Assembly: GCA_963920635.1 (NCBI GenBank)
Contig: OY987299.1
Coordinates: 133,297,373-133,361,372, forward strand
Source of the DNA: Pseudeuparius sepicola
Lineage: Eukaryota; Arthropoda; Insecta; Coleoptera; Anthribidae
Length of the DNA stretch: 64,000 nucleotides
Reading direction: 5' to 3'
Below, piece by piece: positions 3,655 through 48,728 of this stretch. The notes beneath the pieces are model-generated. The model had not been told where the DNA came from and ran no database searches. It saw only the letters and a program-made list of their open reading frames with translations. Every line of letters begins with the position of its first letter. The first letter of the stretch is position 1. The position numbers and the translations under genes were made by a program.

Positions 3655-3843
3655 TGATTTTCAATTTAATATTAAATATTCCCAATTTGAAATTGTTTAT
3701 TCTCAATTTGATATTGACTATTCCCAATTTGAAGTTGTCTATTCCCAATTTGAAATTGATTAATCCCAATTTGAAGTTGACTGTTCTCAATTTGAAGTTG
3801 TTTATTCCCAATTTGAAATTGATTATTCCCAATTTGAAGTTGA
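3655..3843. repeat. 21-bp minisatellite, right foldback arm
   Basis: Inverted counterpart of the array at 2218-2403, with the same unit order and only a few substitutions. The arms have therefore stayed nearly identical, through recent formation or conversion. Confidence 0.85.
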
Positions 3844-4281: not shown

Positions 4282-4441
4282 ATGGCTGTGATCGCGGGGT
4301 TCGCGCTGGTCGCGCTGTCCTTCGCGGCGGGGTGCTACGGGGCAGCGACGGCCCCTCATCAGGGGGACGCCTGCGACGCCGCCCGCCAAGAGGTGCAGGC
4401 GAGGGGGTTCGCCGATTCCCCCCTGCAGCAGCCGCAGAAGG
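4282..4441 (+). CDS. First coding exon of a glypican-like proteoglycan (Dally/Dlp type)
   Basis: The ATG opens a 53-codon segment. Residues 1-24 form a typical signal peptide with a hydrophobic core (IAGFALVALSFAA). The mature part begins near residue 25 and has its first cysteine at 31 in DACDAARQEVQARGFADSPL. That spacing (Cys, Arg four later, GF, then D-x-P-L) resembles the start of the N-terminal cysteine domain of glypicans, cell-surface heparan sulphate proteoglycans that shape Wnt, Hedgehog and BMP gradients. The exon ends at AAGG|GTGAGT, a strong donor in phase 1, about 22 codons after the cysteine; a similar early intron exists in vertebrate glypicans as I recall. The ATG was chosen because the frame upstream lacks a good start. 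That this is an expressed secreted-protein exon is fairly sure; the family name is tentative because only one cysteine is visible. Confidence 0.5.
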
Positions 4442-5334
4442 GTGAGTTATTATCAGAGTTGGCCGGGTGATTGACAGCTGTCGTTTGCTTTGTTTACGTT
4501 CGGCGAAAGGGGGACGGACGGCGATTGGTTAATGACGGCGCGTTGCCAGGCGACGGGGAAACGAGGGGAAGGTGTGTGGGTAGGGGAACGGGGATTTTTT
4601 GCGATCGCCTGATCTAGTATCTCCATGGTATGTTGATTTTGAACCAATAATTATTGGAACTATATTAACTTGCTATTACGTGTTTTATGAGCCAAAAGTG
4701 TGCAGTTATGAAGTCATAATTTACACACGGTATTTTCTTGCAGGTCAAGCTAAATTTTCGTTGGAAAAAGTGGGCTATGAGTCGTGGTTGCTACTTTGCT
4801 ACGGTCGTTCGTTGCTCGATCTCGATACAGATACATAATACAAACAAAACAATCTGTCAATTGGTGATTTACTTAATTATTTTAAAAAAAATCCTACTTC
4901 AGAATATTCGCAATGATTTCAGATATACATGTAAATGTAAGTTCAGTCCAAATGTAATTAATGTGGGTATGTGGGCACCTATACTTAATTAAAATTAAAT
5001 TCAGATCGGGTCGAGGGGTGGAAAACTAAGACTGATTAGGTATATTTTACGCCGTTGTTAGACTTTTTTACTATTTTTCAAACATATTTTTCCTTTTCAG
5101 AAAATGTTTATTTTTTACCAATATAACCAGACTACTATTCCTAATGTATTTTCCGCAAAAAAATATTTTTTTCTTTAGTTATTTTAACGTCACTTTTCTT
5201 AACTTAATGGTAGTTTTTGTTTTAATTGCTGGCATATTGTTGGTGATTTAACATGTCAAAATCGATTCTTAGGTTCTTCGACATGCAGAGAAGATTCCCC
5301 ATTCCCCAGAATACTTTTTTTAAGACTCAATGTA
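4442..5334 (+). other. Start of the large intron, no gene seen
   Basis: Begins with the donor GTGAGT after the first exon. The first 150 bp are still fairly GC-rich; the rest is AT-rich intron. No second glypican exon (cysteine-rich, acceptor-flanked) is recognisable here or later. Confidence 0.5.
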
Positions 5335-8924: not shown

Positions 8925-10195
8925 TCAAGGTATATAAGACCTTGGGCCGTGGTTGGCCGTTGTCAAATGTCATTTTGTGTTGCTACCACAAATTTCGCTT
9001 TTCCCCTAGAAAGCATTCTAAATCCCCTAGAATGCACACAATATGGCGGCTATCCAGCGCCAGCGCCCTGTGCCGTACGGCTAAAAATTGGTGGAGGAAC
9101 TAGGGCCCAATGCCCAATGGTGGTCCAGTTTATTTTACGAGGGTCGTTATTGGAACATAAAGTGACATTACAGACAAAGGGTTGTGGTAGGGGCAAGCGG
9201 GTGAGGACCAGTTAGGTTGGTAATAATCTTGGTCCAAAGTCATGTATTTTGTCCAAACCTCTGCAGTAACCTTGCGTTTTCACAATTATTATCGAACATC
9301 CAAATCACTGGAGTATACAAACGTAAGTTTGTGCTTGCTCAATGGTCTATGATAACCTCATGACCCTCTATTGTTTCTCTGGTTGTAATTATTGTATTAA
9401 CCTAACCTTGATATTCTGCAAATCTAATCTAAGTGTTCTGCCTTCAGCCGATGCGGCGATGTTCCTTTTGCTAATGATCCCTAACGCTAAAATGGAATAT
9501 GAAACGGCGTACGTGGTAGTACAGTAAAACTAACTCAAAATTAGGCCAAACCCAAACATCCAAAAAAAAGATCTTTCTAGCGCGAAATAGTTCCATACCC
9601 TCCTAAGAGTTAGCACTAAAAAGTTACACCACCACCAGCGTCGGGTTTCGGGGGGAGGGGGTGAAAAGGGCAGGAAATTCTTATTTTTCACAGTTTTGCG
9701 TGAATATCTAGTAAACTATGAGCGTTGGGTGAAGTGATACACATTAAATTCCGAACAAGAATTGTTATATACAGAATTATGGTAAAGTGAGGGTGTCTAC
9801 CAACCTGGAAAACCTGGAAATGTCAGGGAATTATTTTTGGTCAGGGAAATCAGGGAAAAGTCAGGGAAATCTATCAAATAACCTGGAAATTTGTGGTGTA
9901 ATAGATAGATAGGAAATCTTTAATTTTTACAAAAACTAATCAAAATTATATCATTCATTTTGATTCTACTCCACAGAAATCACATTATGTTTTTTATTTA
10001 AATGTGATCCCTATGCTTCTACTATACTGCAAAGATAATCTAACGAAATAAGATTTTACGAAGCTATTTATTTTTCTTTTGAAGGTGTTTATTTTTTATA
10101 TGTTTTTTTTATTTTGGAGAATGTGTAAAAGATATTTTGTTTGTTTTATACGTGATTTTATATTTTTACAACAAATCTTGTATCTTTATTTTTTA

Positions 10196-11319
10196 CAGGG
10201 TGGCTCATTATAAATTGACACCCCCCCTTAACTTGCTAGTTTTTGAGGTTAGAAAAAAAGTTTTTTTTACAAAAGTTATAGATACTAATACAAAGTTTTT
10301 TGTGACACTATTGGACCTTATACAGTGTGTTCTAAAAAGCCGTGGCAGACATAACTTATGTTTCTTTAAATGGAACATCTTGTATATTTTTGTTATATGT
10401 TCGCTCCAACCGTTCGTTCAGAACTAAGCCTTTTTTGTGGGATTAGGGATTATTCCTTGGGTCATAGGCTGCCATGAAAGACAAATGCCAAATTATAGTA
10501 ATAGCTGACAGTTTGCAAGTATATTCATGCTTTGGAAAACAAAATGGGCTCTTTTAAGATTTCAGGGAAAATGAAGGAGGGAAATTGAGAGAAATAAGAA
10601 ATTTTAAATAGTAACGTAGGTAATAAACTTCGTCAAATTTATTGTTTTAATTTAATTTTTATTGAAAACGACAATGACATTTAGAAAAAGGATATATTTT
10701 TATATGTTTTTGTGGGGTTATTTAAAAAACAGAATTTATTATGACAGACCGAAAAATGTAGAAACACTGAAAGGTAGAATTCGGGAAGAAATTCATATAT
10801 TAAATACTGAACACAGAAATTTTATTGTTGCCCCAATAAACAGAAACTTAGTAGCAAATATCAATAAATTCATACGTATATCCTTTTTCTAAATTTTATT
10901 GTCGTTTTCAATAAAAATTAAATTAAAAACAATAAATTGGACGAAGTTTATTGACTATGTCACATTTTGTTTTCCAAAGCGTGAATATACTTGCAAACTG
11001 TCAATAATTGTTACTATAATTTGGCAACCTATGACCCAAGGAATAATCCCTCACAAAAAAGGCTGTTCTGAACGAACGGTTGGACCGAACATATAACATA
11101 TATGCTTCATTGGAATCGGAAAAATGCATAGAAAATATACAAGGCGTTCCATTTAAAAAAACAAAAGTTATGTTTGCCACGGCTTTCTAGAACACACTGT
11201 ATAAGGTCCAATAACATCACAAAAAAACGTTGTATTAGTAGGTATCTAAAACTTTTGTAACAAAACTTTTTTTCTAACCTCAGACACTAGCAAGTTAAGG
11301 GGGGTGTCAATTTATACTG
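10196..11319. mobile_element. Foldback nested in the 8-bp-TSD element
   Basis: Left end CAGGGTGGCTCATTATAAAT with TA at 10194-10195; right end is the complement with about 10 bases deleted next to the TA at 11320-11321. Arms of almost 500 bp pair (GGTGTCAATTTATA; CTTAACTTGCTAG; AACCGTTCGTTCAGAAC) around a loop at about 10697-10864 that encodes a transposase fragment. The same nested structure occurs in the second copy, so it inserted before that element was copied. Confidence 0.75.
10697..10864 (+). pseudogene. Mariner-like transposase C-terminal relic in a foldback loop
   Basis: The loop translates without interruption and begins with FYMFLWGYLKNRIYYDRP, followed by NVETLKGRIREEI. This matches the conserved block after the third catalytic acid in the mariner-related transposases common in arthropods (a ...DFFLWGYLK...V...P...L..RI...I pattern). 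The rest of the gene is absent: the flanking sequence is the inverted arms. Family assignment is from remembered motifs; a protein search would settle it. Confidence 0.65.
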
Positions 11320-12101
11320 TACTTTATTAACCTCGTTAGCAACAGTTTCTGCCAAAAAGTTGAAATTCCAAGCCACTTTATAACTTTCTTCGAAAACATA
11401 ATAGGACATAATTTGCACATTTATTTAATTAATGTCAGATGACATCACTGAAACTAATAGTCCGCTTTTGAATTTTTTTGTTAGTAAGCACGATCGTTCA
11501 GAGTAATTTCATCTTAGGGGATCTGTTGACTCTTCCATTTTATTTAAATTCGCATATTTATCTCAGTAGGTAGGTATTAGTCAGGGAATTTTTTGCTTTT
11601 TGGTCAGGGAAAACCTGGAAAAGTCAGGGAATTTTAAAAACTCGATTTGGTAGACACCCTGTAAAGTGAACGGTTTCCATGATATGGAGGGGTAAAGATT
11701 TCTTTGTTTTTATTTCACGTAGTTTTTGTTGAAAAAACTTAAAATGATTACAGTATAAATTAGTAACTGAATAATGTATGTAGAATATATATTGATATAT
11801 CTATGCATATATAGATACATATTACACCCATAGATTGTTATTTTTTGTCACAACATAACCTCATAAGTATATGACTGTAAATATGTCCAATACAAGTTAG
11901 TAAGTAGCCTTAGTTAATTTGTACTCACTTTTTGCCCTCATTCATTATAGCGTTCTGATTTCCATTCGTTCTTTTATGTCAAATCATTCCCATATCTAAT
12001 TTGTCCTTAGCTTGTAAAAATGAGAAAGTCATGAATAGGAAGCTCATGTGAAAAACAAGAAAATATATATTAAACAATCCTCATCGTATGCTTCTGCAGA
12101 G

Positions 12102-13585: not shown

Positions 13586-15197
13586 CAGTGTGTCCCACTT
13601 AAGGACTGACCACCCCTGTAAAATCTTTATTTATGGCTCGATTTCGATAATCTTTTTTTTGTTGGATAGAGCTTTAAAAATGGCATTAAATGTATAATTC
13701 AGGTACCTCGTGCCTTAAATTCATGGCCCACTGAGGAAAATCAATGCCGGATTCTTGTTCAGCGTTGTTCGAAACCCAAACGTACCAATTTGCATTACCA
13801 TAGCTCTACAGGGTGTTTCAAAATTTTTAGTGTCCCACTTCATTAGTGACCACCCCTGTAAAATTTTTATTTTTAGCACGATTTCATAAACTTTTTTTTT
13901 GTTGGATAGAGCTTCAATAATGGCATTAAATGCATAATTCAGGTGCCTCGTGCGTTACATTCATGGCCCACTGAGACGAAGTTTTAGTGCTGAAATTTCG
14001 AGAAGTACCTACTATTAGGGACTTTTTTAGAGAAAAATTAATGCTAGATTTTTATTCAACGTTGTTGGAAACCCAAACGTACCAATTTGCATTAGAAAAT
14101 GGAGGACTAATTGAAATGACTGAAATTTGAGTTTATGTTATGTTGTTTATTCATGTATTTGATGATATTAAATTAAATAAAAAAAATTTTCCCTAATAAA
14201 TTTTTGAAAGAATATGAGTTCTTCATGAATATTTTAGTGACCAACTTACCAGAAATTAAGAAAATTAACACAAATTAGTACGTTTTTGTTTGGAACCTCT
14301 CACTGCATATAAGAATCCGGCCTTACTTTTCCTTTTAATTTTTTGGAACACCCTGTGGAGCTATGGTAATGCAAATTGGTACGTTTGGGTTTCCAACAAC
14401 GCTGAACAAGAAACCGGCTTTAATTTTCTGTAAAAAATCCCTAATAGTACTTCTCGAAATTTCAGCACTAAAACACCGTCTCAGTGGGCCATGAATTTAA
14501 CGTATGAGGCACCTGAATTATACATTTAATGCCATTTTTAAAGCTCTACCCAACAAAAAGTTTATGAAAATCAAGCTATAAATAAAAATTTTTCGAGGGT
14601 GGTCAGCCATAAAAATTTTGAAACTCCCTGTAGAGCTACGGCAAAGCAAATTGGTACGTTTGGGTTTCGAACAATGCTGAATAAGAATCTGGCATTAATT
14701 TTCCTCTAAAAAATCCGTAACAGTACTTCCCGAAATTTCAACACTAAAACACCGTCTCAGTGGGCCATGAATTTAACACACGAGGCACCTGAATTATGCA
14801 TTTATTGCCATTTTTAAAGCTCTACCCAACAAAAAAAAGTTTATGAAAATCGAGCTATAAATAAAAATTTTACGAGGGTGGTCAGCCCGTAAGTGAGGCA
14901 ATAAAAATTTTGGAACTCCCTGTAGAGCTACGGCAAAGCAAATTGGTACGTTTGGGTTTCGAACAATGCTGAATAAGAATCTGGCATTAATTTTTCTCTA
15001 AAAAATCCCTAATAGTACTTCTCGAAATTTCAGCACTAAAACACCGTCTCAGTAGGCCATGACTTTAACGCACGAGGCACCTGGATTATGTGTTTGATGC
15101 AATTTTTGAAGCTCTATCCAACAAAAAAAAGTTTATGAAAATCGAGCTATAAATAAAAATTTTACAGGGGTGGTCAGTCCTTAAGTGGGACACACTG
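13586..15197. mobile_element. Multi-unit foldback element, five subunits
   Basis: Ends CAGTGTGTCCCACTTAAGGA and its complement with TA on both sides (13584-13585, 15198-15199). Inside are two forward and three reverse copies of a 240-290 bp subunit, each with TGGCCCACTGAG and ACGTACCAATTTGC landmarks (forward near 13720 and 13960; reverse near 14480, 14757 and 15048). Such stepwise multiplication of terminal units is known from Drosophila FB and Galileo elements. No transposase seen. Confidence 0.75.
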
Positions 15198-33747: not shown

Positions 33748-34758
33748 CAGCGTGTCCATTTACTATCCCCTTCTTCGATTGTGGCTATACTTTTAAAGAT
33801 AAAAAAAATCCGTTCGGGGGTTAAATGGAACGACCAGATTTTTTTATCGCAAATGAAGCCTATCAAAGTATAGTATACATCCCTACATTATTTCCGCTTC
33901 CATCTGCGGCGTTGCCAAGTTATAATTTTTTTAAGGTATTTTTTGCTAAATACCAACCCTTCATTAATATTGCTATATTTTTCTTGCGGCTTGATTTTTG
34001 CTCTTGAAACTTTGGTTGTGGATTTACACTTAACAATTTCTAAAACATTCACCAATTACGTAAATCATACTTATCAAGTCTTGTTTACAATAATTCATTT
34101 TGTGACAACTTTTTGCTGTTTGAAATTAAACAACGAACACAGAATACAAGCAGCAAATGAAATATTTACCAAATGTCAAACTAGAAACAAAACCATGGCC
34201 ACCTATGAGTTCTCCTAAAACGTTTAACTTTTTATAATTTAATATTCTATTGCAGGTGTAGTAGGTATACAAAAATATGGTAAACTACAGATTGTAACTG
34301 ATACTAACGCTTTTTTTATATGCAGCTTTTTAAATAAGTACAAGTTTGATTCCCGAGTAATTTGCATGTATGTAATAAGTAAAAAAGTTGCAAATTTGTG
34401 TAAATCCACAACCAAAGTTTCAAGAGCAAAAATCAAGCCGCAAGAAAAATATAGCAATATTAATGAAGGGTTGGTATTTAGCAAAAAATACCTTAAAAAA
34501 ATTATAACTTGGCAACGCCGCAGATGGAAGCGGAAATAATTTAGGGATGTATACTATACTTTGATAGGCTTCATTTGCGATAAAAAAGTCTGGTCGTTCC
34601 ATTTAAAAATTTTTATTTCTTTGTCTCCACACTTTTTTGGAACACCCTGTATATACCAAACTAATTTTAAAATGTGCTCCATCTCCCCTTATTTGGATCC
34701 CCCGAACGGATTTTTTTTATCCTGAAAAGTAAAAAGGGAATAGTAAATGGACACGCTG
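33748..34758. mobile_element. Foldback element beside the Tc1 transposon
   Basis: CAGCGTGTCCATTTACTATC and its complement, flanked by TA (33746-33747, 34759-34760). Arms of about 270 bp pair (GGAACGACCAGA; CCATCTGCGGCGTTGCCAAG; GAAACTTTGGTTGTGGATTT); the right arm holds about 100 extra bases (34607-34700). The loop, 34030-34395, shows no transposase. The Tc1 element begins 25 bp after its right end. Confidence 0.8.
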
Positions 34759-34783
34759 TATTCTATGATCCTTGTCAAACATA

Positions 34784-36307
34784 CACTCACCGGCACGAAA
34801 AACGGAGCACTTTTAAGTAATTTCTAATAACAATTGGGCGCTTTTTTTTTAAATAAAAACTTTTGTTACAATTTAAAAAATTAGAACGATAAACCCACAT
34901 TGGTGTTGTGGCAAAATGTCCTTAAATGAATCAAAACTTAAACGATTTTTGAGCAAAAACTAATGAGGAGCATTTTTAATAACGGGTATTACCCCCGCGA
35001 GCTCGAATGATTGCATGCATTCTCCGTGGCATGCCTAAAATCAAATGGCAAATGTCCTCTTGAGGAATAAGGTCCCATTCCTCTAAAAGAGCTTGTTTCA
35101 ACTGATTTATGGTTAAAGGAGCAGAAACACGACTTCGCATTCTTCGCCCAAGCATGTCCCAAACATGTTCAATCGGGTTCGCATCTGGACTTAACGCTGG
35201 CCACTCCAAAACAGGAATGTTTACATCATTTAAATACTGTTGAGTGATTCTTGCGGTATGAGGTCTGGCATTATCATGCATCAGAAGAAAGGTATTTCCA
35301 ATAAAATCAACATACGGGACAACAAAATCTTGGAGAATTTCATCAATGTACCTGGCAGCAGTTAAGGAGCCTCTTGGAACGATGTACAACTCAGTGTGTG
35401 CCTCCAGAGAAATTCCAGCCCACACCATTACTGAACCTCCTTGGTATCCTACTCTAGGACTGAAGGTACATTCTGCAAAACGCTCTTGTGGTCTTCGCCA
35501 TACTCTCTCGCGACCATCTGGAGATCGCAGGCTAAACCTGGACTCATCAGTAAATAAAATTCGCCCCCAATCATTTTCACCCCAGTGCTCATGATTTCTG
35601 GCAAACCGAAGTCGCGCAACACGATGACGCCTAAGAAGCTCTGGACCTGTTGCAGGTCTACGACTGGTAAGATTGGCTTCTGCAAGTCTTCGTCTAACTG
35701 TACGTTCGCTTACATTGGTATTCCGAACATGATGAAGTCTATTTCTGATTTCTACAGCTGTAGCACGACGATCTCGTAGACTTTGCAAGAGGATGAAGCG
35801 ATCATCATGAGCGTTAGTTTTTCGTTGGGGACCAGTTCCAGGTCGTCTGGTGTAAGCTCTAGTTTCCAAAAAACGTGTATAAATACGGTGCACAGTGCTA
35901 TTGGATACGGCATATTGTTGGGCAACATATCGCTCAGTTCTTCCGTCTTGAAGCAACGCAACAATAGCAGCCGCTGTTTCAGGATTAACAGCCATATTTT
36001 TACCTTAAATAAACGCAGTACAGCTTTGAACTGTTTCACTTCTTTAAACTCAGACTTGTCAAAACAATAAAAACAAAAGAAAAGTCATGGCCAACTAAGA
36101 CTTGTGTACTTTTTAATTTTTGGAAATTTTTATTCAAAACAGTCTAGTCTTGCTTTTCAAATAAACGTTTAATTGTTGTTAGATATTACTTAAAACATGT
36201 TGTTGTTTGCTTTTAACTTATTATAATAATAAACCATTGCAAAGTATTAAAATTTTACATTTTTTAAATAAAAACTATAAGTGCTCCGTTTTTCGGGCCG
36301 GTGAGTG
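34784..36307 (-). mobile_element. Complete Tc1-type transposon
   Basis: Terminal repeats of 29 bp starting CACTCACCGGCMCGAAAAAC, with one mismatch between ends, and flanking TA at 34782-34783 and 36308-36309. It holds one full-length transposase gene. About 1.52 kb, the usual size for Tc1 elements. Its last 118 bp form the start of every unit of the tandem array that follows. Confidence 0.9.
34976..35995 (-). CDS. Tc1 transposase, DD34E, apparently intact
   Basis: 339 residues from ATG to stop with no break. The first 115 residues contain two helix-turn-helix regions for terminal-repeat binding (AQQYAVSNSTVHRIYTRF; SERTVRRRLAEANLTSRR), joined by a GRPR-like basic linker (RRPGTGPQRKT, residues 50-60). 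The catalytic core has D150 in FTDESRFSL, D241 in LMHDNARPHTA and E276 in SPDANPIEHVWD; 34 residues separate the last two, the DD34E signature of Tc1 enzymes. The enzyme excises the element and inserts it at TA dinucleotides. Length is normal for the family. No promoter is obvious in the 312 bp between the ATG and the right end. Intact catalytic residues suggest recent arrival and possible activity. Confidence 0.93.
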   Translation of the reverse strand: MAVNPETAAAIVALLQDGRTERYVAQQYAVSNSTVHRIYTRFLETRAYTRRPGTGPQRKTNAHDDRFILLQSLRDRRATAVEIRNRLHHVRNTNVSERTVRRRLAEANLTSRRPATGPELLRRHRVARLRFARNHEHWGENDWGRILFTDESRFSLRSPDGRERVWRRPQERFAECTFSPRVGYQGGSVMVWAGISLEAHTELYIVPRGSLTAARYIDEILQDFVVPYVDFIGNTFLLMHDNARPHTARITQQYLNDVNIPVLEWPALSPDANPIEHVWDMLGRRMRSRVSAPLTINQLKQALLEEWDLIPQEDICHLILGMPRRMHAIIRARGGNTRY

Positions 36308-39300
36308 TATATACCTAGCAATACGACAGACGACGGAAAGAGATGAGTAGGTATTCGGTCTACGTGTGTAAGGCGTAAGGCCGCGACGACGCGAAGGTCG
36401 TTTCCCGTGCAGCATCGCCGACCGATATCGGCGATACACCGGCCGCACCGTACGACCGTCTCGCCCGCCGAATTCCGCCGGGGCCAGGGCGGTTCATTGG
36501 CCCGCAACCAGGAATGCGGAGTTCATTGGGGGGTTTGCATAAAGTGCAGCGCAGTTCGCACGGTGCGGCCGCCCGCCCGTCCGAATCCGAGCCTTTTCGC
36601 GGCGGGCGCTCCGCGCTCCTCGGGCCAGCGAAAGGGAATTCCGATAGCCGCGGCCGGACACTTTGTACCGAGGTAAAATAGGTAAGGTGGGTTTATCAGG
36701 GTGTCTACCAACCTGGAAAACCTGGAAATGTCGGGGAATTATTTTTGGTCAGGGAAAAGTCAGGGAAATCTATCAAATAACCTGGAAATTTGTGGTTTAA
36801 TAGATATAAAAATAGGCAATCTTTAATTCTTACAAAAACTAATCAAAATTATATCATATTCATTTTGATTCTACTCCACAGAGATCACATATTATGGTAT
36901 TTATTTATATGCGATCCCTGTGCTTCTACTATACTCCAAAGATTTAAAACATGTTGTTGTTTGCTTTTAACTTATTATAATAATAAACCATTGCAAAGTA
37001 TTAAAATTTTACATTTTTTAAATAAAAACTATAAGTGCTCCGTTTTTCGGGCCGGTGAGTGTATATACCTAGCAATACGACAGACGACGGAAAGAGATGA
37101 GTAGGTATTCGGTCTACGTGTGTAAGGCGTAAGGCCGCGACGACGCGAAGGTCGTTTCCCGTGCAGCATTGCCGACCGATATCGGCGATACACCGGTCGC
37201 ACCGCACGACCGTCTCGCCCGCCGAATTCCGCCGGGGCCGGGGCGGTTCATTGGCCCGCAACCAGGAATGCGGAGTTCATTAAGGGGTTTGCATAAAGTG
37301 CAGCGCAGTTCGCACGGTGCGGCCGCCCGCCCGTCCGAATCCGAGCCTTTTCGCGGCGGGCGCTCCGCGCTCCTCGGGCCAGCGAAAGGGAATTCCGATA
37401 GCCGCGGCCGGACACTTTGTACCGAGGTAAAATAGGTAAGGTGGGTTTATCAGGGTGTCTACCAACCTGGAAAACCTGGAAATGTCGGGGAATTATTTTT
37501 GGTCAGGGAAAAGTCAGGGAAATCTATCAAATAACCTGGAAATTTGTGGTTTAATAGATATAAAAATAGGCAATCTTTAATTCTTACAAAAACTAATCAA
37601 AATTATATCATATTCATTTTGATTCTACTCCACAGAGATCACATATTATGGTATTTATTTATATGCGATCCCTGTGCTTCTACTATACTCCAAAGATTTA
37701 AAACATGTTGTTGTTTGCTTTTAACTTATTATAATAATAAACCATTGCAAAGTATTAAAATTTTACATTTTTTAAATAAAAACTATAAGTGCTCCGTTTT
37801 TCGGGCCGGTGAGTGTATATACCTAGCAATACGACAGACGACGGAAAGAGATGAGTAGGTATTCGGTCTACGTGTGTAAGGCGTAAGGCCGCGACGACGC
37901 GAAGGTCGTTTCCCGTGCAGCATCGCCGACCGATATCGGCGATACACCGGCCGCACCGTACGACCGTCTCGCCCGCCGAATTCCGCCGGGGCCAGGGCGG
38001 TTCATTGGCCCGCAACCAGGAATGCGGAGTTCATTAAGGGGTTTGCATAAAGTGCAGCGCAGTTCGCACGGTGCGGCCGCCCGCCCGTCCGAATCCGAGC
38101 CTTTTCGCGGCGGGCGCTCCGCGCTCCTCGGGCCAGCGAAAGGGAATTCCGATAGCCGCGGCCGGACACTTTGTACCGAGGTAAAATAGGTAAGGTGGGT
38201 TTATCAGGGTGTCTACCAACCTGGAAAACCTGGAAATGTCGGGGAATTATTTTTGGTCAGGGAAAAGTCAGGGAAATCTATCAAATAACCTGGAAATTTG
38301 TGGTTTAATAGATATAAAAATAGGCAATCTTTAATTCTTACAAAAACTAATCAAAATTATATCATATTCATTTTGATTCTACTCCACAGAGATCACATAT
38401 TATGGTATTTATTTATATGCGATCCCTGTGCTTCTACTATACTCCAAAGATTTAAAACATGTTGTTGTTTGCTTTTAACTTATTATAATAATAAACCATT
38501 GCAAAGTATTAAAATTTTACATTTTTTAAATAAAAACTATAAGTGCTCCGTTTTTCGGGCCGGTGAGTGTATATACCTAGCAATACGACAGACGACGGAA
38601 AGAGATGAGTAGGTATTCGGTCTACGTGTGTAAGGCGTAAGGCCGCGACGACGCGAAGGTCGTTTCCCGTGCAGCATCGCCGACCGATATCGGCGATACA
38701 CCGGCCGCACCGTACGACCGTCTCGCCCGCCGAATTCCGCCGGGGCCAGGGCGGTTCATTGGCCCGCAACCAGGAATGCGGAGTTCATTGGGGGGTTTGC
38801 ATAAAGTGCAGCGCAGTTCGCACGGTGCGGCCGCCCGCCCGTCCGAATCCGAGCCTTTTCGCGGCGGGCGCTCCGCGCTCCTCGGGCCAGCGAAAGGGAA
38901 TTCCGATAGCCGCGGCCGGACACTTTGTACCGAGGTAAAAGAGGTAAGGTGGGTTTTCAAGGTGTCTACCAACCTGGAAAACCTGGAAATGTCGGGGAAT
39001 TATTTTTGGTCAGGGAAAAGTCAGGGAAATCTATCAAATAACCTGGAAATTTGTGGTTTAATAGATATAAAAATAGGAAATCTTTAATTCTTACAAAAAC
39101 TAATCAAAATTATATCATATTCATTTTGATTCTACTCCACAGAGATCACATATTATGGTATTTATTTATATGCGATCCCTGTGCTTCTACTATACTCCAA
39201 AGATTTAAAACATGTTGTTGTTTGCTTTTAACTTATTATAATAATAAACCATTGCAAAGTATTAAAATTTTACATTTTTTAAATAAAAACTATAAGTGCT

Positions 39301-42300
39301 CCGTTTTTCGGGCCGGTGAGTGTATATACCTAGCAATACGACAGACGACGGAAAGAGATGAGTAGGTATTCGGTCTACGTGTGTAAGGCGTAAGGCCGCG
39401 ACGACGCGAAGGTCGTTTCCCGTGCAGCATTGCCGACCGATATCGGCGATACACCGGTCGCACCGCACGACCGTCTCGCCCGCCGAATTCCGCCGGGGCC
39501 GGGGCGGTTCATTGGCCCGCAACCAGGAATGCGGAGTTCATTAAGGGGTTTGCATAAAGTGCAGCGCAGTTCGCACGGTGCGGCCGCCCGCCCGTCCGAA
39601 TCCGAGCCTTTTCGCGGCGGGCGCTCCGCGCTCCTCGGGCCAGCGAAAGGGAATTCCGATAGCCGCGGCCGGACACTTTGTACCGAGGTAAAATAGGTAA
39701 GGTGGGTTTATCAGGGTGTCTACCAACCTGGAAAACCTGGAAATGTCGGGGAATTATTTTTGGTCAGGGAAAAGTCAGGGAAATCTATCAAATAACCTGG
39801 AAATTTGTGGTTTAATAGATATAAAAATAGGCAATCTTTAATTCTTACAAAAACTAATCAAAATTATATCATATTCATTTTGATTCTACTCCACAGAGAT
39901 CACATATTATGGTATTTATTTATATGCGATCCCTGTGCTTCTACTATACTCCAAAGATTTAAAACATGTTGTTGTTTGCTTTTAACTTATTATAATAATA
40001 AACCATTGCAAAGTATTAAAATTTTACATTTTTTAAATAAAAACTATAAGTGCTCCGTTTTTCGGGCCGGTGAGTGTATATACCTAGCAATACGACAGAC
40101 GACGGAAAGAGATGAGTAGGTATTCGGTCTACGTGTGTAAGGCGTAAGGCCGCGACGACGCGAAGGTCGTTTCCCGTGCAGCATCGCCGACCGATATCGG
40201 CGATACACCGGCCGCACCGTACGACCGTCTCGCCCGCCGAATTCCGCCGGGGCCAGGGCGGTTCATTGGCCCGCAACCAGGAATGCGGAGTTCATTAAGG
40301 GGTTTGCATAAAGTGCAGCGCAGTTCGCACGGTGCGGCCGCCCGCCCGTCCGAATCCGAGCCTTTTCGCGGCGGGCGCTCCGCGCTCCTCGGGCCAGCGA
40401 AAGGGAATTCCGATAGCCGCGGCCGGACACTTTGTACCGAGGTAAAATAGGTAAGGTGGGTTTTCAGGGTGTCTACCAACCTGGAAAACCTGGAAATGTC
40501 GGGGAATTATTTTTGGTCAGGGAAAAGTCAGGGAAATCCATCAAATAACCTGGAAATTTGTGGTTTAATAGATATAAAAATAGGAAATCTTTAATTCTTA
40601 CAAAAACTAATCAAAATTATATCACATTCATTTTGATTCTACTCCACAGAGATCACATATTATGGTATTTATTTATATGCGATCCCTGTGCTTCTACTAT
40701 ACTCCAAAGATTTAAAACATGTTGTTGTTTGCTTTTAACTTATTATAATAATAAACCATTGCAAAGTATTAAAATTTTACATTTTTTAAATAAAAACTAT
40801 AAGTGCTCCGTTTTTCGGGCCGGTGAGTGTATATACCTAGCAATACGACAGACGACGGAAAGAGATGAGTAGGTATTCGGTCTACGTGTGTAAGGCGTAA
40901 GGCCGCGACGACGCGAAGGTCGTTTCCCGTGCAGCATCGCCGACCGATATCGGCGATACACCGGCCGCACCGTACGACCGTCTCGCCCGCCGAATTCCGC
41001 CGGGGCCAGGGCGGTTCATTGGCCCGCAACCAGGAATGCGGAGTTCATTAAGGGGTTTGCATAAAGTGCAGCGCAGTTCGCACGGTGCGGCCGCCCGCCC
41101 GTCCGAATCCGAGCCTTTTCGCGGCGGGCGCTCCGCGCTCCTCGGGCCAGCGAAAGGGAATTCCGATAGCCGCGGCCGGACACTTTGTACCGAGGTAAAA
41201 GAGGTAAGGTGGGTTTTCAAGGTGTCTACCAACCTGGAAAACCTGGAAATGTCGGGGAATTATTTTTGGTCAGGGAAAAGTCAGGGAAATCTATCAAATA
41301 ACCTGGAAATTTGTGGTTTAATAGATATAAAAATAGGAAATCTTTAATTCTTACAAAAACTAATCAAAATTATATCACATTCATTTTGATTCTACTCCAC
41401 AGAGATCACATATTATGGTATTTATTTATATGCGATCCCTGTGCTTCTACTATACTCCAAAGATTTAAAACATGTTGTTGTTTGCTTTTAACTTATTATA
41501 ATAATAAACCATTGCAAAGTATTAAAATTTTACATTTTTTAAATAAAAATTATAAGTGCTCCGTTTTTCGGGCCGGTGAGTGTATATACCTAGCAATACG
41601 ACAGACGACGGAAAGAGATGAGTAGGTATTCGGTCTACGTGTGTAAGGCGTAAGGCCGCGACGACGCGAAGGTCGTTTTCCGTGCAGCATCGCCGACCGA
41701 TATCGGCGATACACCGGCCGCACCGTACGACCGTCTCGCCCGCCGAATTCCGCCGGGGCCAGGGCGGTTCATTGGCCCGCAACCAGGAATGCGGAGTTCA
41801 TTAAGGGGTTTGCATAAAGTGCAGCGCAGTTCGCACGGTGCGGCCGCCCGCCCGTCCGAATCCGAGCCTTTTCGCGGCGGGCGCTCCGCGCTCCTCGGGC
41901 CAGCGAAAGGGAATTCCGATAGCCGCGGCCGGACACTTTGTACCGAGGTAAAATAGGTAAGGTGGGTTTTCAAGGTGTCTACCAACCTGGAAAACCTGGA
42001 AATGTCGGGGAATTATTTTTGGTCAGGGAAAAGTCAGGGAAATCTATCAAATAACCTGGAAATTTGTGGTTTAATAGATATAAAAATAGGAAATCTTTAA
42101 TTCTTACAAAAACTAATCAAAATTATATCATATTCATTTTGATTCTACTCCACAGAGATCACATATTATGGTATTTATTTATATGCGATCCCTGTGCTTC
42201 TACTATACTCCAAAGATTTAAAACATGTTGTTGTTTGCTTTTAACTTATTATAATAATAAACCATTGCAAAGTATTAAAATTTTACATTTTTTAAATAAA

Positions 42301-44477
42301 AATTATAAGTGCTCCGTTTTTCGGGCCGGTGAGTGTATATACCTAGCAATACGACAGACGACGGAAAGAGATGAGTAGGTATTCGGTCTACGTGTGTAAG
42401 GCGTAAGGCCGCGACGACGCGAAGGTCGTTTTCCGTGCAGCATCGCCGACCGATATCGGCGATACACCGGCCGCACCGTACGACCGTCTCGCCCGCCGAA
42501 TTCCGCCGGGGCCAGGGCGGTTCATTGGCCCGCAACCAGGAATGCGGAGTTCATTAAGGGGTTTGCATAAAGTGCAGCGCAGTTCGCACGGTGCGGCCGC
42601 CCGCCCGTCCGAATCCGAGCCTTTTCGCGGCGGGCGCTCCGCGCTCCTCGGGCCAGCGAAAGGGAATTCCGATAGCCGCGGCCGGACACTTTGTACCGAG
42701 GTAAAATAGGTAAGGTGGGTTTTCAAGGTGTCTACCAACCTGGAAAACCTGGAAATGTCGGGGAATTATTTTTGGTCAGGGAAAAGTCAGGGAAATCTAT
42801 CAAATAACCTGGAAATTTGTGGTTTAATAGATATAAAAATAGGAAATCTTTAATTCTTACAAAAACTAATCAAAATTATATCATATTCATTTTGATTCTA
42901 CTCCACAGAGATCACATATTATGGTATTTATTTATATGCGATCCCTGTGCTTCTACTATACTCCAAAGATTTAAAACATGTTGTTGTTTGCTTTTAACTT
43001 ATTATAATAATAAACCATTGCAAAGTATTAAAATTTTACATTTTTTAAATAAAAATTATAAGTGCTCCGTTTTTCGGGCCGGTGAGTGTATATACCTAGC
43101 AATACGACAGACGACGGAAAGAGATGAGTAGGTATTCGGTCTACGTGTGTAAGGCGTAAGGCCGCGACGACGCGAAGGTCGTTTTCCGTGCAGCATCGCC
43201 GACCGATATCGGCGATACACCGGCCGCACCGTACGACCGTCTCGCCCGCCGAATTCCGCCGGGGCCAGGGCGGTTCATTGGCCCGCAACCAGGAATGCGG
43301 AGTTCATTAAGGGGTTTGCATAAAGTGCAGCGCAGTTCGCACGGTGCGGCCGCCCGCCCGTCCGAATCCGAGCCTTTTCGCGGCGGGCGCTCCGCGCTCC
43401 TCGGGCCAGCGAAAGGGAATTCCGATAGCCGCGGCCGGACACTTTGTACCGAGGTAAAATAGGTAAGGTGGGTTTTCAGGGTGTCTACCAACCTGGAAAA
43501 CCTGGAAATGTCGGGGAATTATTTTTGGTCAGGGAAAAGTCAGGGAAATCTATCAAATAACCTGGAAATTTGTGGTTTAATAGATATAAAAATAGGAAAT
43601 CTTTAATTCTTACAAAAACTAATCAAAATTATATCACATTCATTTTGATTCTACTCCACAGAGATCACATATTATGGTATTTATTTATATGCGATCCCTG
43701 TGCTTCTACTATACTCCAAAGATTTAAAACATGTTGTTGTTTGCTTTTAACTTATTATAATAATAAACCATTGCAAAGTATTAAAATTTTACATTTTTTA
43801 AATAAAAATTATAAGTGCTCCGTTTTTCGGGCCGGTGAGTGTATATACCTAGCAATACGACAGACGACGGAAAGAGATGAGTAGGTATTCGGTCTACGTG
43901 TGTAAGGCGTAAGGCCGCGACGACGCGAAGGTCGTTTCCCGTGCAGCATCGCCGACCGATATCGGCGATACACCGGCCGCACCGTACGACCGTCTCGCCC
44001 GCCGAATTCCGCCGGGGCCAGGGCGGTTCATTGGCCCGCAACCAGGAATGCGGAGTTCATTGGGGGGTTTGCATAAAGTGCAGCGCAGTTCGCACGGTGC
44101 GGCCGCCCGCCCGTCCGAATCCGAGCCTTTTCGCGGCGGGCGCTCCGCGCTCCTCGGGCCAGCGAAAGGGAATTCCGATAGCCGCGGCCGGACACTTTGT
44201 ACCGAGGTAAAAGAGGTAAGGTGGGTTTATCAGGGTGTCTACCAACCTGGAAAACCTGGAAATGTCGGGGAATTATTTTTGGTCAGGGAAAAGTCAGGGA
44301 AATCCATCAAATAACCTGGAAATTTGTGGTTTAATAGATATAAAAATAGGAAATCTTTAATTCTTACAAAAACTAATCAAAATTATATCATATTCATTTT
44401 GATTCTACTCCACAGAGATCACATATTATGGTATTTATTTATATGCGATCCCTGTGCTTCTACTATACTCCAAAGAT
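36190..44477 (+). repeat. Young satellite: eleven tandem 753/754-bp units
   Basis: Units start at 36190, 36944, 37698, 38452, 39205, 39959, 40712, 41465, 42218, 42971 and 43724. Each has three parts: the right-terminal 118 bp of the Tc1 element including its inverted repeat, about 395 bp of CpG-rich DNA, and the left 240 bp of the 8-bp-TSD element. The unit joint is CCAAAGAT|TTAAAACATG. The first unit is continuous with the complete Tc1 element and the last with a complete 8-bp-TSD element, so both parents remain attached. Units differ at only about a dozen sites; the 1-bp length difference is TTTATCAGG versus TTTTCARGG. Reading frames recurring in each unit (86-116 codons) are by-products of the repeat. 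Confidence 0.95.
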
Positions 44478-46161
44478 AATCTAACTAAATAAGATTTTAC
44501 GAAGCTATTTATTTTTGTTTTGAAGGTTTTGAAGGTTTTTTATATGTTTTTTTATTTTGGAGAATGTGTAAAAGATATTTGTTTGTTTTATACGTGATTT
44601 TATATTTTTACAATAAATCGTATATCTTTATTTTTTACAGGGTGGCTCATTATAAATTGACACGCCATTGCTACTTTTTGAGGTTAGAAAAAAGTTTTTT
44701 TTACAAAAGTTATAGATACTAATACGAATTTTTTTGTGACACTATTGGACCTTATACAGTGTGTTCTACAAAGCCGTGGCAGACATAACTTATGTTTCTT
44801 TAAATGGAACATCTTGTATATTTTTGTTATATGTTCGCTCCAACCGTTCGTTCAGAACTAAGCCTTTTTTTGAGGGATTACTCCTTGGGTCATAGGAAAG
44901 ACAAATGCTAAATTATAGTAATAGCTGACAGTTTGCAAGTATATTCATGCTTTGGAAAACATAATGGGCTCTTTTAAGATTTCAGGGAAAATGAAGTAGG
45001 GAAATTGAGAGAAATAAGAAATTTTAAATAGTAACATAGGTAATAAACTTCGTCAAATTTATTGTTTGTTATTTAATTTTTTTGAAAGCGACAATGACAT
45101 TTAGAAAAAGGATATATTTTTATATGTTTTTGTGGGATTATTTAAAAAACATAATTTATTATGACAGACCGAAAAAATGTAGAAACACTGAAAAGTAGAA
45201 TTCGGGAAGAAATCCACATATTAAATACTGAACACAGCAATTTTATTGTTGCCCCAATAAACAGAAACTTAGTGGCAAATATCAATAAATTCATACGCAT
45301 ATCCTTTTTCTAAATGTTATTGTCGTTTTCAATAAAAATTAAATTTCGAACATTAAATCCAACGAAGTTTATTAACTATGTTACTTATTAATTAAAATTT
45401 CTCATTTCTCTCAATTTCCATTCTTAATTTTCTCTGAAAACTTAAAATAGCCCATTTTGTTTTCCAACGCGTGAATATACTTGCAAACTGTCAATAATTG
45501 TTACTATAATTTGGCCTTTGTCTTCCATGGCAACCTATGACACAAGGAGTAATCCCTCTCAAAAAAGGCTGTTCTGAACGAACGGTTGGAGCGAACATAT
45601 AACATACATGCTTCATTGGAATCGGAAAAATGCGTAGAAAATATACAAGGCGTTCCATTTAAAAAAACAAAAGTTATGTTTGCCACGGCTTTCTAGGACA
45701 CACTGTATAAGGTCCAATAGTGTCACAAAAAACGTTGTATTAGAATCTAAAAATTTTGTAACAAAACTTTTTTTCTAGCCTCAGAAACTATCAAGTTAAG
45801 GGGGGTGTCAATTTATACTGTACTTTATTAACCTCGTTAGCAGCAGTTTCTGCCAAAAAGTTGAAATTCCAAGCCACTTTATAACTTTCTTCGAAAACAT
45901 AATAGGACATAATTTGCACATTTATTTAATTAATGTCAGATGACATCACTAAAACTAATAGTCCGCTTTTGAATTTTTTTGTTAGTAAGCACGATCGTTC
46001 AGAGTAATTTCATCGCAGGGGATCTGTTGACTCTTCCATTTTATTCAAATTCGCATATTTATCTCAGTAGGTAGGTATTAGTCAGGGAATTTTTTGCTTT
46101 TTGGTCAGGGAAAACCTGAAAAAGTCAGGGAATTTTAAAAACTCGATTTGGTAGACACCCT
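44232..46161. mobile_element. 8-bp-TSD DNA element, copy 2
   Basis: Same ends as copy 1 (AGGGTGTCTACCAA), flanked by GGTTTATC (44224-44231) and GGTTTATA (46162-46169), 7 of 8 identical. It begins in the last satellite unit and is the only complete copy in the array. Like copy 1 it contains the inner foldback. The left 246 bp are the part repeated in the satellite. Confidence 0.8.
44638..45820. mobile_element. Foldback nested in copy 2, with transposase relic
   Basis: Counterpart of 10196-11319 with the same TA-flanked ends (44636-44637, 45821-45822). The loop near 45118-45290 encodes the same transposase fragment (begins YMFLWDYLKN) but with a frameshift in an A-run near 45172. Confidence 0.7.
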
Positions 46162-46169
46162 GGTTTATA

Positions 46170-46698
46170 CATCTTTCCACGAGGATGATATTAGTAATAG
46201 TAAGTAATAAGAATAACCTAAATATAGCGCAAAACGGACATCCGACCAGGGGAATAATTCGGCGGCCATTTTTAACCCTTAATGAGGCGGGAAATTTGAA
46301 ATAATTTACACGGGTGGGTTCCGCAAATAATGTAATGTACTGCTGGTTGTCATTTTGTACAAAAGAGAATTAATTTAATCGAAAGTACGACATAAGTCCA
46401 AGATTTTATTTATTTAAGTTATTAATGCATTGGGGAAACGAAGCAATTAACTAGGTAAAGAAAATATACAGCTACAATACATTATAAATAATTACTTATA
46501 AAAAACATGAAAATATTTTTGATTACCTAACGTTTTCATAACACTTCTAACAGAGCATATAAAACAACCAGCAGGATAACTTACTCTTGAGAAATCATCC
46601 GCAAATTCAATGACCTTGAGCCATATTGGGGGAATAAAAGTCAGAGGTGTAGTCGGGAAAATCAATTCAGAAATACAGAGTAGTATTAGTAAAGTATA
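46170..46698. other. Unique intron between elements
   Basis: AT-rich, no gene seen. It ends at the TA target of the next foldback. A stretch near 46380-46450 resembles 32390-32450 in inverted form (TAATGCATT..GGGGAAAC), probably another dispersed repeat. Confidence 0.35.
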
Positions 46699-48207
46699 CA
46701 GTGTGTCCCGGATAAGAATGAACAGCATGGGGATATTGCAAACGGTGAGAGATAGGGCAACGATTAAATGGGGAAAAAGTTGCGCAATTTCGATGTCAAT
46801 AAAATGGCACAAACAGATTTCTAATATCTTTTTTCGTTTTTGAGTTATTTTGAAAAAAGTAAAATTTTGCGTTTTCGATTTTATTTTTTCTGAAGTTGCT
46901 ATCACAGATAGAGAAAAAATAAAAGCACTTTCTTATGGCACTTTTTAACGGGCCTTAAGATGGCATTTTTAGATTTGTTCTACAACGTTTCGTTTTTGAG
47001 AAACCATCTTCAACTTAATTTTTTTAATAATAATTTAATAATTTTTTTTCAAATTTTGAAAGCACTTTTCATTGCAAATACCATGATGTATGACAAGAAA
47101 TATTTTTAAAATGTTTTGAGACAATTATACTGAAAATTCCTCTTTTCCATTATTTTTTTTTCTAATGCGGCCCTGTATTTAATAATAAGAAGTCTAAATA
47201 ATAATCAGTATTGTCAACAATTTAACTTACAACTTATCTTTCAATTGGAGAATTAAAAAAAGGACGGCACATACGATAATAAAAAATAAATAAAAATCCT
47301 CCACCTAGAAGGCTTTGAAACAACGAAACCAATCCCTTGTCATTTGTCACAACTCCCACTGTATCATTTAGTTAACAATTTATTTCATTACAAATGGAGG
47401 GTGCTTTTTCAAATGACGACAAATTTAACATGTGAGCATGTTATATCTTGTGTCACAGAAATAGTGTAGAGGCCGAATGTATTTTTGCAATTAATAAATG
47501 GCAAAAGTTATTGATTACGTTGGCTTAATGCTTTCTTCTCGAAATTAGGAAAAGCGAAGAATTTACTCCAAAACACAGTGCGATACTGTTTGCTGTACAA
47601 CAACAGAGGAAAACACTTTACGAGACGCAGGGCCGTACAATTTAAAAATATTAAGTTTTCGAAGTGAAAATAAACTGCAAGTTAAATTGTTGTCAATACT
47701 GATTAATATTTAGACTCCTTATTATTAAATACAGGGCCGCATTAGACAAAAATGAATGGAAAAAAAGGAATTTCAGTATAATTGTCTCAAAACATTTTAA
47801 AAATATTTCGTGTCATACATCATGGTATTTGCAATGAAAAGTGCTTTCAACATCTACAAAAAAAAATCCAGGTCCGTATTTAAAAAAATAAAGTTGAAGA
47901 TGGTTTCTCAAAAACGTAACGTTGTAGAACAAATCTAAAAACTTCATCTTAAGGCCCGTTAAAAAGTGCCATAAGAAAGTGTTTTTCTTTTTTCTCTATC
48001 TGTGATAACAACTTCAGAAAAAAATAAATCGAAAACGCAAAATTTTACTTTTTTCAAAATAACTCAAAAACGAAAAAAGATATTAAAAATCTGTTTGTGC
48101 CATTTTATTGACCTCAAAATTGCGCAACTTTTTCCCCATTTACCGTTGCCCTATCTCTCACCGTTTGCAATATCCCCATGCTGTTCATTCTTATCCGGGA
48201 CACAGTG
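46699..48207. mobile_element. Foldback element, arms about 500 bp
   Basis: CAGTGTGTCCCGGATAAGAA and its complement at the right, TA at 46697-46698 and 48208-48209. Arms pair through GAACAGCATGGGGATATTGC, CAAAATTTTACTTTTTTCAA and AAGTTAAATTGTTG. The loop, about 47230-47650, contains a degenerate transposase start. Confidence 0.8.
47394..47500 (+). pseudogene. Possible transposase N-terminal relic in a foldback loop
   Basis: The ATG starts MEGAFSNDDKFNM, followed by a stop and then, in the same frame, ACYILCHRNSVEAECIFA. The pattern F..D...M...Y..C..NS.EA resembles the N-terminal helix-turn-helix region of the mariner-related transposases whose C-terminal pieces occur in other loops here. Degenerate and short, so tentative. 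Confidence 0.35.
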
Positions 48208-48209
48208 TA

Positions 48210-48728
48210 TAGTGTGTGTGGTTTCTATTTTCTCTGTATTGTAAACACCCAAACACAAATTGTTATAAACACGTCCACAAGACGTATCGTTTCTTATCTC
48301 CTCCCTGTCAGTAAGTGTGTTGTATTTCGACATGCCAGCCGTTTAAAGACGTACACCTTGCCTCAAGCCGTAGATAACTCTCCAGACAACGAGGGTTTCC
48401 CACAAGACGGAGAGCGAATAGACGGTTTCTAATATGTATTTTTATGCCTACCGTTGACACGCCTAGCCAGCGTTTATTTGTTCTTGTCCCATAAAATTTA
48501 CCTTTTACATGCGCCTTATCTGTGATCCGCAGCAGACTTCCACAGACTTTGTGTATCTTTGAGAGCTGTGTATGTTTTCACGTGATTATACTGTTAAACT
48601 TGCGGGTACGGTCCCGAAACTATATGAGGCTTTGCCCTTTGTTTTCCTCACGACAAGACAATAATTACACTACTAAATTTGTGAGTGGGGTTATGGAAAA
48701 CTGACAATATAAATTATTGAGGTTTTGT
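48210..48728. other. Unique intron, nothing recognised
   Basis: No palindrome, tandem repeat or convincing reading frame. Short open frames on both strands near 48178-48432 cover each other and show no motif. Confidence 0.4.

Follow-up and report, generated by a model that had tools for sequence, protein, structure and literature searches.

How does unique DNA turn into a tandem array, and can that step still be read at the place where it happened? Often this first step is inferred only after the parental sequences have decayed. We analysed a 64,000-nucleotide stretch of the genome of the anthribid beetle Pseudeuparius sepicola (contig OY987299.1 of assembly GCA_963920635.1, positions 133,297,373 to 133,361,372; hereafter the window), in which eleven tandem units lie between a Tc1-type transposon and a fold-back element with an 8-bp target site duplication (TSD). 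An earlier note, made from the sequence alone, had described them as a newborn satellite with both parent transposons still attached, born of a single tandem duplication followed by unequal exchange. In the present case parents and seam can be read, as can the order of events in part, and some mutations can be polarised against sister copies of the transposons. We consider it probable that the array began as one homology-free tandem duplication and then grew and was shuffled by unequal exchange and gene conversion.

Structure of the array

Run for long periods, Tandem Repeats Finder reports a period of 753, 11.0 copies, 99% matches and 0% indels at 36190-44477, which, together with the unit starts (36190, 36944, 37698, 38452, 39205, 39959, 40712, 41465, 42218, 42971 and 43724), bears out the eleven units of 753/754 bp noted there; they are homogeneous, run head-to-tail and amount to 8.3 kb. 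Read from the sequence, unit 1 (36190..36943, + strand) consists of a Tc1-derived part of 118 bp (36190-36307) with its TA (36308-36309), a host-derived GC-rich core of 388 bp (36310-36697) and 246 bp of the 8-bp-TSD element (36698-36943). The three-part composition proposed earlier is thus correct, as is the attribution of the Tc1 share to the last 118 bp of that element, its TA being included as well; the lengths given for the other two parts, about 395 bp for the core and 240 bp for the 8-bp-TSD part, needed adjustment. Units 2-10 follow at 36944..43723 and unit 11 at 43724..44477, all on the + strand. As had been claimed, and as read from the sequence, the left side of unit 1 is continuous with the Tc1 element (34782-36309) and the right side of unit 11 with the 8-bp-TSD element (44232-46161). 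Between the units lie ten identical junctions, the first of which joins CTCCAAAGAT to TTAAAACATG at 36934..36953 (+).

The core has a GC content of 0.62 and an observed/expected CpG ratio of 1.44. It had been described as CpG-rich; since the ratio for the entire window is 1.14, the contrast is mainly one of GC, and the window value rules out a CpG island on a CpG-poor background.

What did not survive is the term satellite in its usual sense. The repeats are tandem and homogeneous, as in satellites, and the abundance, long arrays and several loci or heterochromatic location of satellites are not found, the array being confined to one locus with 8.3 kb and 11 copies. Its single locus, constant junction and flanks continuous with the source are traits of a local array resembling a variable number tandem repeat; it is better called a local tandem array, not yet a satellite.

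The parent elements

The Tc1-type element (34782..36309, - strand) has TA on both sides and an open transposase frame of 339 amino acids (34976-35995, -), in which the HTH_Tnp_Tc3_2 and DDE_3 domains (PF01498, PF13358) score above cut-off; the nearest protein among the matches listed (120 of 1857) is 91% identical. Genome searches, here and below, covered the species' own assembly of 769 Mb. Scoring of the best 40 of 367 candidates for the Tc1 family yielded 39 other copies whose match to the query, from base 30 to base 1528/1529, is 99-100%, and judged by this similarity the family is young. Contrary to the earlier note, the element is not intact: its left inverted repeat is damaged, about 85 bp of it being gone relative to the other copies, whose inverted repeats measure about 140 bp, and a complete inverted repeat is therefore not found. 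The single-block alignment of all 39 other scored copies starts only at query base 30, and in the 32 copies counted among the matches listed the first 31 query bases sit 82-89 bp further out; the offset of the outer end is 85 bp in the Tc1 copy at C10:3682000-3690000, a neighbourhood discussed below.

The second parent, a full element of about 1.9 kb (44232..46161, +), has the ends AGGGTGTCTACCA and TGGTAGACACCCT, and its flanks, GGTTTATC at 44224-44231 and GGTTTATA at 46162-46169, agree in 7 of 8 bases. One of its fold-back arms begins at 44648. A sister copy in the window (9790..11660, +) is bordered by a perfect GTAAAGTG target duplication pair. Genome-wide there are 2559 candidates for this family, and among the best 40, which were scored, the top non-self match reaches 97%. 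The 8-bp duplication and the short terminal inverted repeats (AGGGTGTCTACCA) are traits of the hAT superfamily that are not exclusive to it, and on these two features we label the element hAT-like; a fold-back element with duplications of 8-10 bp has been assigned to Mutator (PMC4079207). No frame of at least 110 amino acids occurs in the copy at 44232-46161, no search for a transposase, its own or a partner's, having been made.

Origin at a single locus

Did the array arise where it now lies? With the core as query (36311-36690), 12 candidates were obtained and all 12 scored: the eleven units and one weak match of 49 bp. The whole unit, for which the best 40 of 925 candidates were scored, matches end to end nowhere but in this array. 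The junction pattern, allowing at most 2 mismatches, has 10 matches in the 769 Mb, all within the array, where the reversed control has none. Since the core occurs eleven times and the junction ten times, all here, the array arose at this locus. The genome search for the unit and for the core alone, which the earlier note had recommended, thus finds both in this array only, and its claim that source and product are still in place is upheld by the attachment of both parents to the end units. The same note had named an older array elsewhere, from which this one was copied, as the observation that would overturn its reading; no such array is present in the assembled genome, because the unit, core and junction searches matched only here. 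Transfer from an older array is, in our estimate, as good as negligible: we found no point in its support, and it would have to account for core and junction being matched only here in the assembly and for both parents being continuous with the end units.

The 49-bp match lies at C2:92287279-92287327, on the same contig as the array, and resembles the beginning of the core at 82% (E 3.3e-6); it may be a conserved motif or the remnant of an old repeat. The neighbourhood at C10:3682000-3690000 was considered as a second locus and rejected, its intervening DNA matching the fold-back arms and not the core. There a Tc1 copy stands beside fold-back sequence, another 8-bp-TSD element follows after about 608 bp, and there is no array; the two elements have the same orientation as the pair in the window, with different DNA between them. 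We take this neighbourhood to be a coincidence of two abundant families. Large arrays (period of at least 150, at least 2.5 copies) number two besides the main one, neither with more than 3 copies, in a transposon-biased and partly overlapping comparison set comprising the window and 152410 letters of fetched loci, array-bearing loci excluded; one of the two lies in the window at 14341-15187, the other in a fetched locus.

The duplication junction

The topology is that of a direct duplication of the segment between a point inside the Tc1 element and a point inside the fold-back element. At the seam the donor sequences are AAAGAT/AATC in the fold-back element and ATTAC/TTAAAA in Tc1 (the slash marks the break), with 0 shared and 0 inserted bases. 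A duplication made by a transposase was rejected because each break lies within its element, 118 and 246 bp from the ends. We infer a break-and-join step in which a Tc1 copy and the hAT-like fold-back element, about 390 bp apart and probably within an intron of a glypican gene, each suffered a break; end joining without homology would have linked the break 246 bp into the fold-back element to that 118 bp into Tc1, on the sister chromatid or the homologue, so that about 754 bp would now be present twice, head to tail.

The positions of the two breaks also bear on a replicative origin, in which a fork stalls at the fold-back palindrome and restarts upstream at the Tc1 inverted repeat, possibly repeatedly. 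The right break (44477) is 171 bp ahead of the fold-back arm, and the left break (36190) falls inside the roughly 140-bp Tc1 inverted repeat, as such a route would have it. Template switching usually leaves microhomology. The junction contains none, and we regard the replicative route as decidedly unlikely, although the evidence at hand does not separate it from end joining.

Variation among units

The later history of the array is recorded in 14 variable sites, of which none (0/14) is private to one unit. Units differ pairwise by a mean of 5.9 and a maximum of 10 of 754 positions; no difference separates unit 2 from unit 5 or unit 8 from unit 9, which leaves 9 distinct unit haplotypes. The four-gamete test is failed by 26 of the 91 site pairs, and by 20 of 45 after the linked groups 227-297 and 339-340 are merged. 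Shared variants and four-gamete violations establish exchange between units, and the present set of eleven copies is young, because no unit has a mutation of its own.

Two of these features, heavy mosaicism and the identical pairs, are compatible with stitched reads, and thus with an assembly artefact in which real copy number or unit order differs and haplotype switching has made mosaic units. The clean flanks, the constant junction, the lack of N in the array loci, the nine unit haplotypes and the 137-Mb contig make an artefact highly improbable, and since the junction exists, at least two units are real in any case.

The lack of private mutations is also relevant to an extrachromosomal origin, in which the 754-bp segment was excised as a circle, amplified by rolling-circle replication and reinserted homologously at its source, with conversion to follow. 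This route yields the same topology and a single constant junction, since homology-free closure of a circle leaves the same seam; rolling-circle replication has been proposed for the birth of long satellites (PMC4935994), and rolling circles for clustered copies of Bari1, a member of the Tc1-mariner superfamily (PMC9659126). A single burst from a circle predicts later private mutations, however, and none is seen among the 14 sites, so that exchange has to be added to this scenario as well. Free circles would moreover be expected to land elsewhere at times, and the assembly holds no copies off the source locus. Overall we judge the circle route unlikely.

Under direct tandem duplication, the preferred reading, the first repeats would supply the homology for unequal exchange and gene conversion, which would raise the copy number and shuffle the variants. 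Five sites could be polarised, with 21 copies of the fold-back element and 8 of Tc1 as outgroups. Unit 11 has the ancestral base at 86, 510, 628 and 668 (4 of the 5 polarised sites) and the derived one at 582, and this mostly ancestral state is what a founder end would be expected to show. An extra A at site 506 is retained in units 1, 2, 3, 5 and 11; comparison with the right-hand target duplication suggests that this A is ancestral, and the 753-bp units would therefore hold a derived one-base deletion. One substitution in the Tc1 part and another in the fold-back part are shared by 11/11 units and occur in 0/8 Tc1 and 0/21 fold-back copies; being universal in the units and absent from the outgroups, they predate the array or have been homogenised. 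Derived bases common to end and inner units indicate that the end units too have exchanged.

Simulations and the order of events

Two kinds of simulation were used. In the first, crossover between sister chromatids was combined with steady mutation, and runs were kept when they had 11 units and 12-16 variable sites, a rough conditioning in that each run halts at its first match to this filter. The kept runs contained on average 0.8-2.2 four-gamete pairs, and with 30 exchanges for each mutation the filter was passed by 0 of 300 runs. In the second, two-phase kind, a few founder units that had already diverged were followed by growth with exchange and no new mutation, over 15 settings. Among these the best, with 3 founders and 80% gene conversion, produced 0 singletons together with at least 15 violations in 12% of 651 kept runs; the settings without conversion reached this combination in 0.1-1.2% of kept runs. 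These rough models suggest that conversion and recent growth were needed; their rates are not inferable from them, and the share of conversion is an estimate from modelling. Mixing with diverged alleles could produce the same pattern of variants.

Substitutions private to the parents provide an approximate time scale. Outside its repeated part the Tc1 element has 3 in 1360 bp (34830-36189) relative to 8 copies, about 0.2%, and the fold-back element has 17 in 1931 bp, 2 of them within unit 11, counted against 9 rows that represent 8 distinct copies (one place is present twice).

Several of these results weigh against the preferred reading, at least in its simple form. None of the 758 kept runs with crossover and steady mutation was free of singletons, so that of the earlier formula, a single tandem duplication followed by unequal exchange, the local duplication and the later exchange stand, and simple crossover alone does not. 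Even the best of the 15 two-phase settings gives a pattern weaker than that observed (at least 15 violations versus 20), and in only 12% of its runs. Unit 1 has derived bases at 86 and 628 and is therefore no unaltered founder. Units 4-6 reproduce the left halves of units 1-3, a weak repetition that is suggestive only: shuffling the left halves gives the three-unit pattern in 2284 of 50000 cases, and similarity at offset 3 has p 0.064 and at offset 1 p 0.129. Finally, by simple arithmetic the private divergence of Tc1 leads one to expect about 3.3 differences between units that split at the time of its insertion, compared with the observed mean of 5.9. This gap lies within the Poisson range of 3 events, but it puts a strain on the order of events in its simplest form, and the excess divergence may require exchange with diverged alleles.

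Gene context

The array lies downstream of a predicted first coding exon (4282..4441, +) with a signal peptide, a cysteine segment and a GTGAGT donor at 4442, which we take to resemble the N-termini of glypicans. The glypican family PF01153 has 7 matches on the contig, of which 5, above cut-off and in profile order, occupy the + strand at C2:133454486-133465781; these exons lie outside the window, on the same contig and strand, and begin about 113 kb past the array. The 2 further matches are elsewhere on the contig. A glypican match at C2:8753220-8754020 is contained in a single long frame with one internal TGA. The exon at 4282-4441 alone has no glypican match in Pfam or among PDB sequences, and a motif scan of the three + frames of the window for a second glypican exon gave 3 matches, none convincing. 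Position, strand, splice signal and the presumed resemblance make it probable that the array sits in an early intron of a glypican gene that spans about 164 kb.

This setting raises the possibility that the GC-rich core is a cis-regulatory element of the glypican gene, an intronic promoter or enhancer, whose eleven-fold amplification alters expression and is kept by selection. If this were true, the birth of the array would also be a regulatory mutation in the gene of a morphogen co-receptor; we find the idea very doubtful. The window contains no known RNA at gathering score, and the unit has one match far below that score (E 0.68). Among the 6 papers listed on tandem repeats in first introns of glypican genes, none was to the point. 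Most likely the array is neutral or nearly so, a potential seed of a satellite that has not spread in the assembly.

Relation to known arrays

Young arrays derived from transposable elements (TEs) with a known source have been published (PMC4079207; others reported in PMC12628747 and PMC9659126). Closest in kind is Tetris/TIR-220 of Drosophila virilis, a satellite emerging out of a fold-back transposon, which shares with the present array its youth, its known transposon source, the involvement of a fold-back element and the proposal of unequal crossing-over (PMC4079207). There, however, the repeat pre-existed within one element and its amplification is placed in beta-heterochromatin (PMC4079207), whereas in the unit described here, which is probably intronic, host DNA lies between the ends of two elements that are unrelated to each other.

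Proposed routes to TE-derived tandem arrays have been set out in a 2025 review (PMC12628747), in which composite monomers are proposed to arise by tandemisation of mixed TE loci ('TE graveyards') and their origin is treated as an open question. The monomer built from pieces of different transposons is common to both cases. In the graveyards of that proposal the TEs have decayed and lie in heterochromatin, without a demonstration of the first step (PMC12628747), in contrast to the recognisable and attached parents seen here, one of them very young. End joining and non-allelic recombination are among the routes named in PMC9659126. McGurk and Barbash 2018, as reported in PMC12628747, described tandem TE dimers and a 16-copy expansion of hobo, which is likewise a local expansion with a DNA transposon; there a single element is repeated in tandem, and double insertion is a main route to dimers (PMC12628747). 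The unit described here, by contrast, spans from one element into a different one.

The satellite life-cycle model of Ruiz-Ruano et al. 2016 also begins with the duplication of a genomic segment at one locus. In that model spreading precedes growth beyond about 1.5 kb (PMC4935994). The present array has reached 8.3 kb without spread in the assembly, and growth past 1.5 kb before spreading reverses the order of the model (PMC4935994), provided that such arrays count as satellites.

An array of exactly this make-up was not found among the listed titles and beginnings of abstracts of open-licence papers. The locus illustrates the mixed-TE route clearly and on a local scale. Its parents are young, its unit includes host DNA, and it lies outside the heterochromatic surroundings for which that route was proposed; we regard it as a good, well-preserved natural instance of a process already known and not as a new kind of system.

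Other repeats in the window

Several further repeats occur in the window. A second tandem array at 14341-15187 has a period of 292, 3.0 copies and 88% matches. Two arrays of 21-bp units, at 2218-2399 and 3662-3843, lie about 1.3 kb apart and have consensus units that are apparently reverse complements of each other, like repeat-bearing arms of a fold-back element. Adjoining the Tc1 insertion, an inverted repeat with arms of 209 bp and 99% identity (33821-34606) forms another young fold-back structure. To the right of the 8-bp-TSD element, at about 46695-48211, is a member of a 1.5-kb fold-back family with inverted arms, for which there are 5390 candidates; among the best 40, which were scored, most match at 93-96%.

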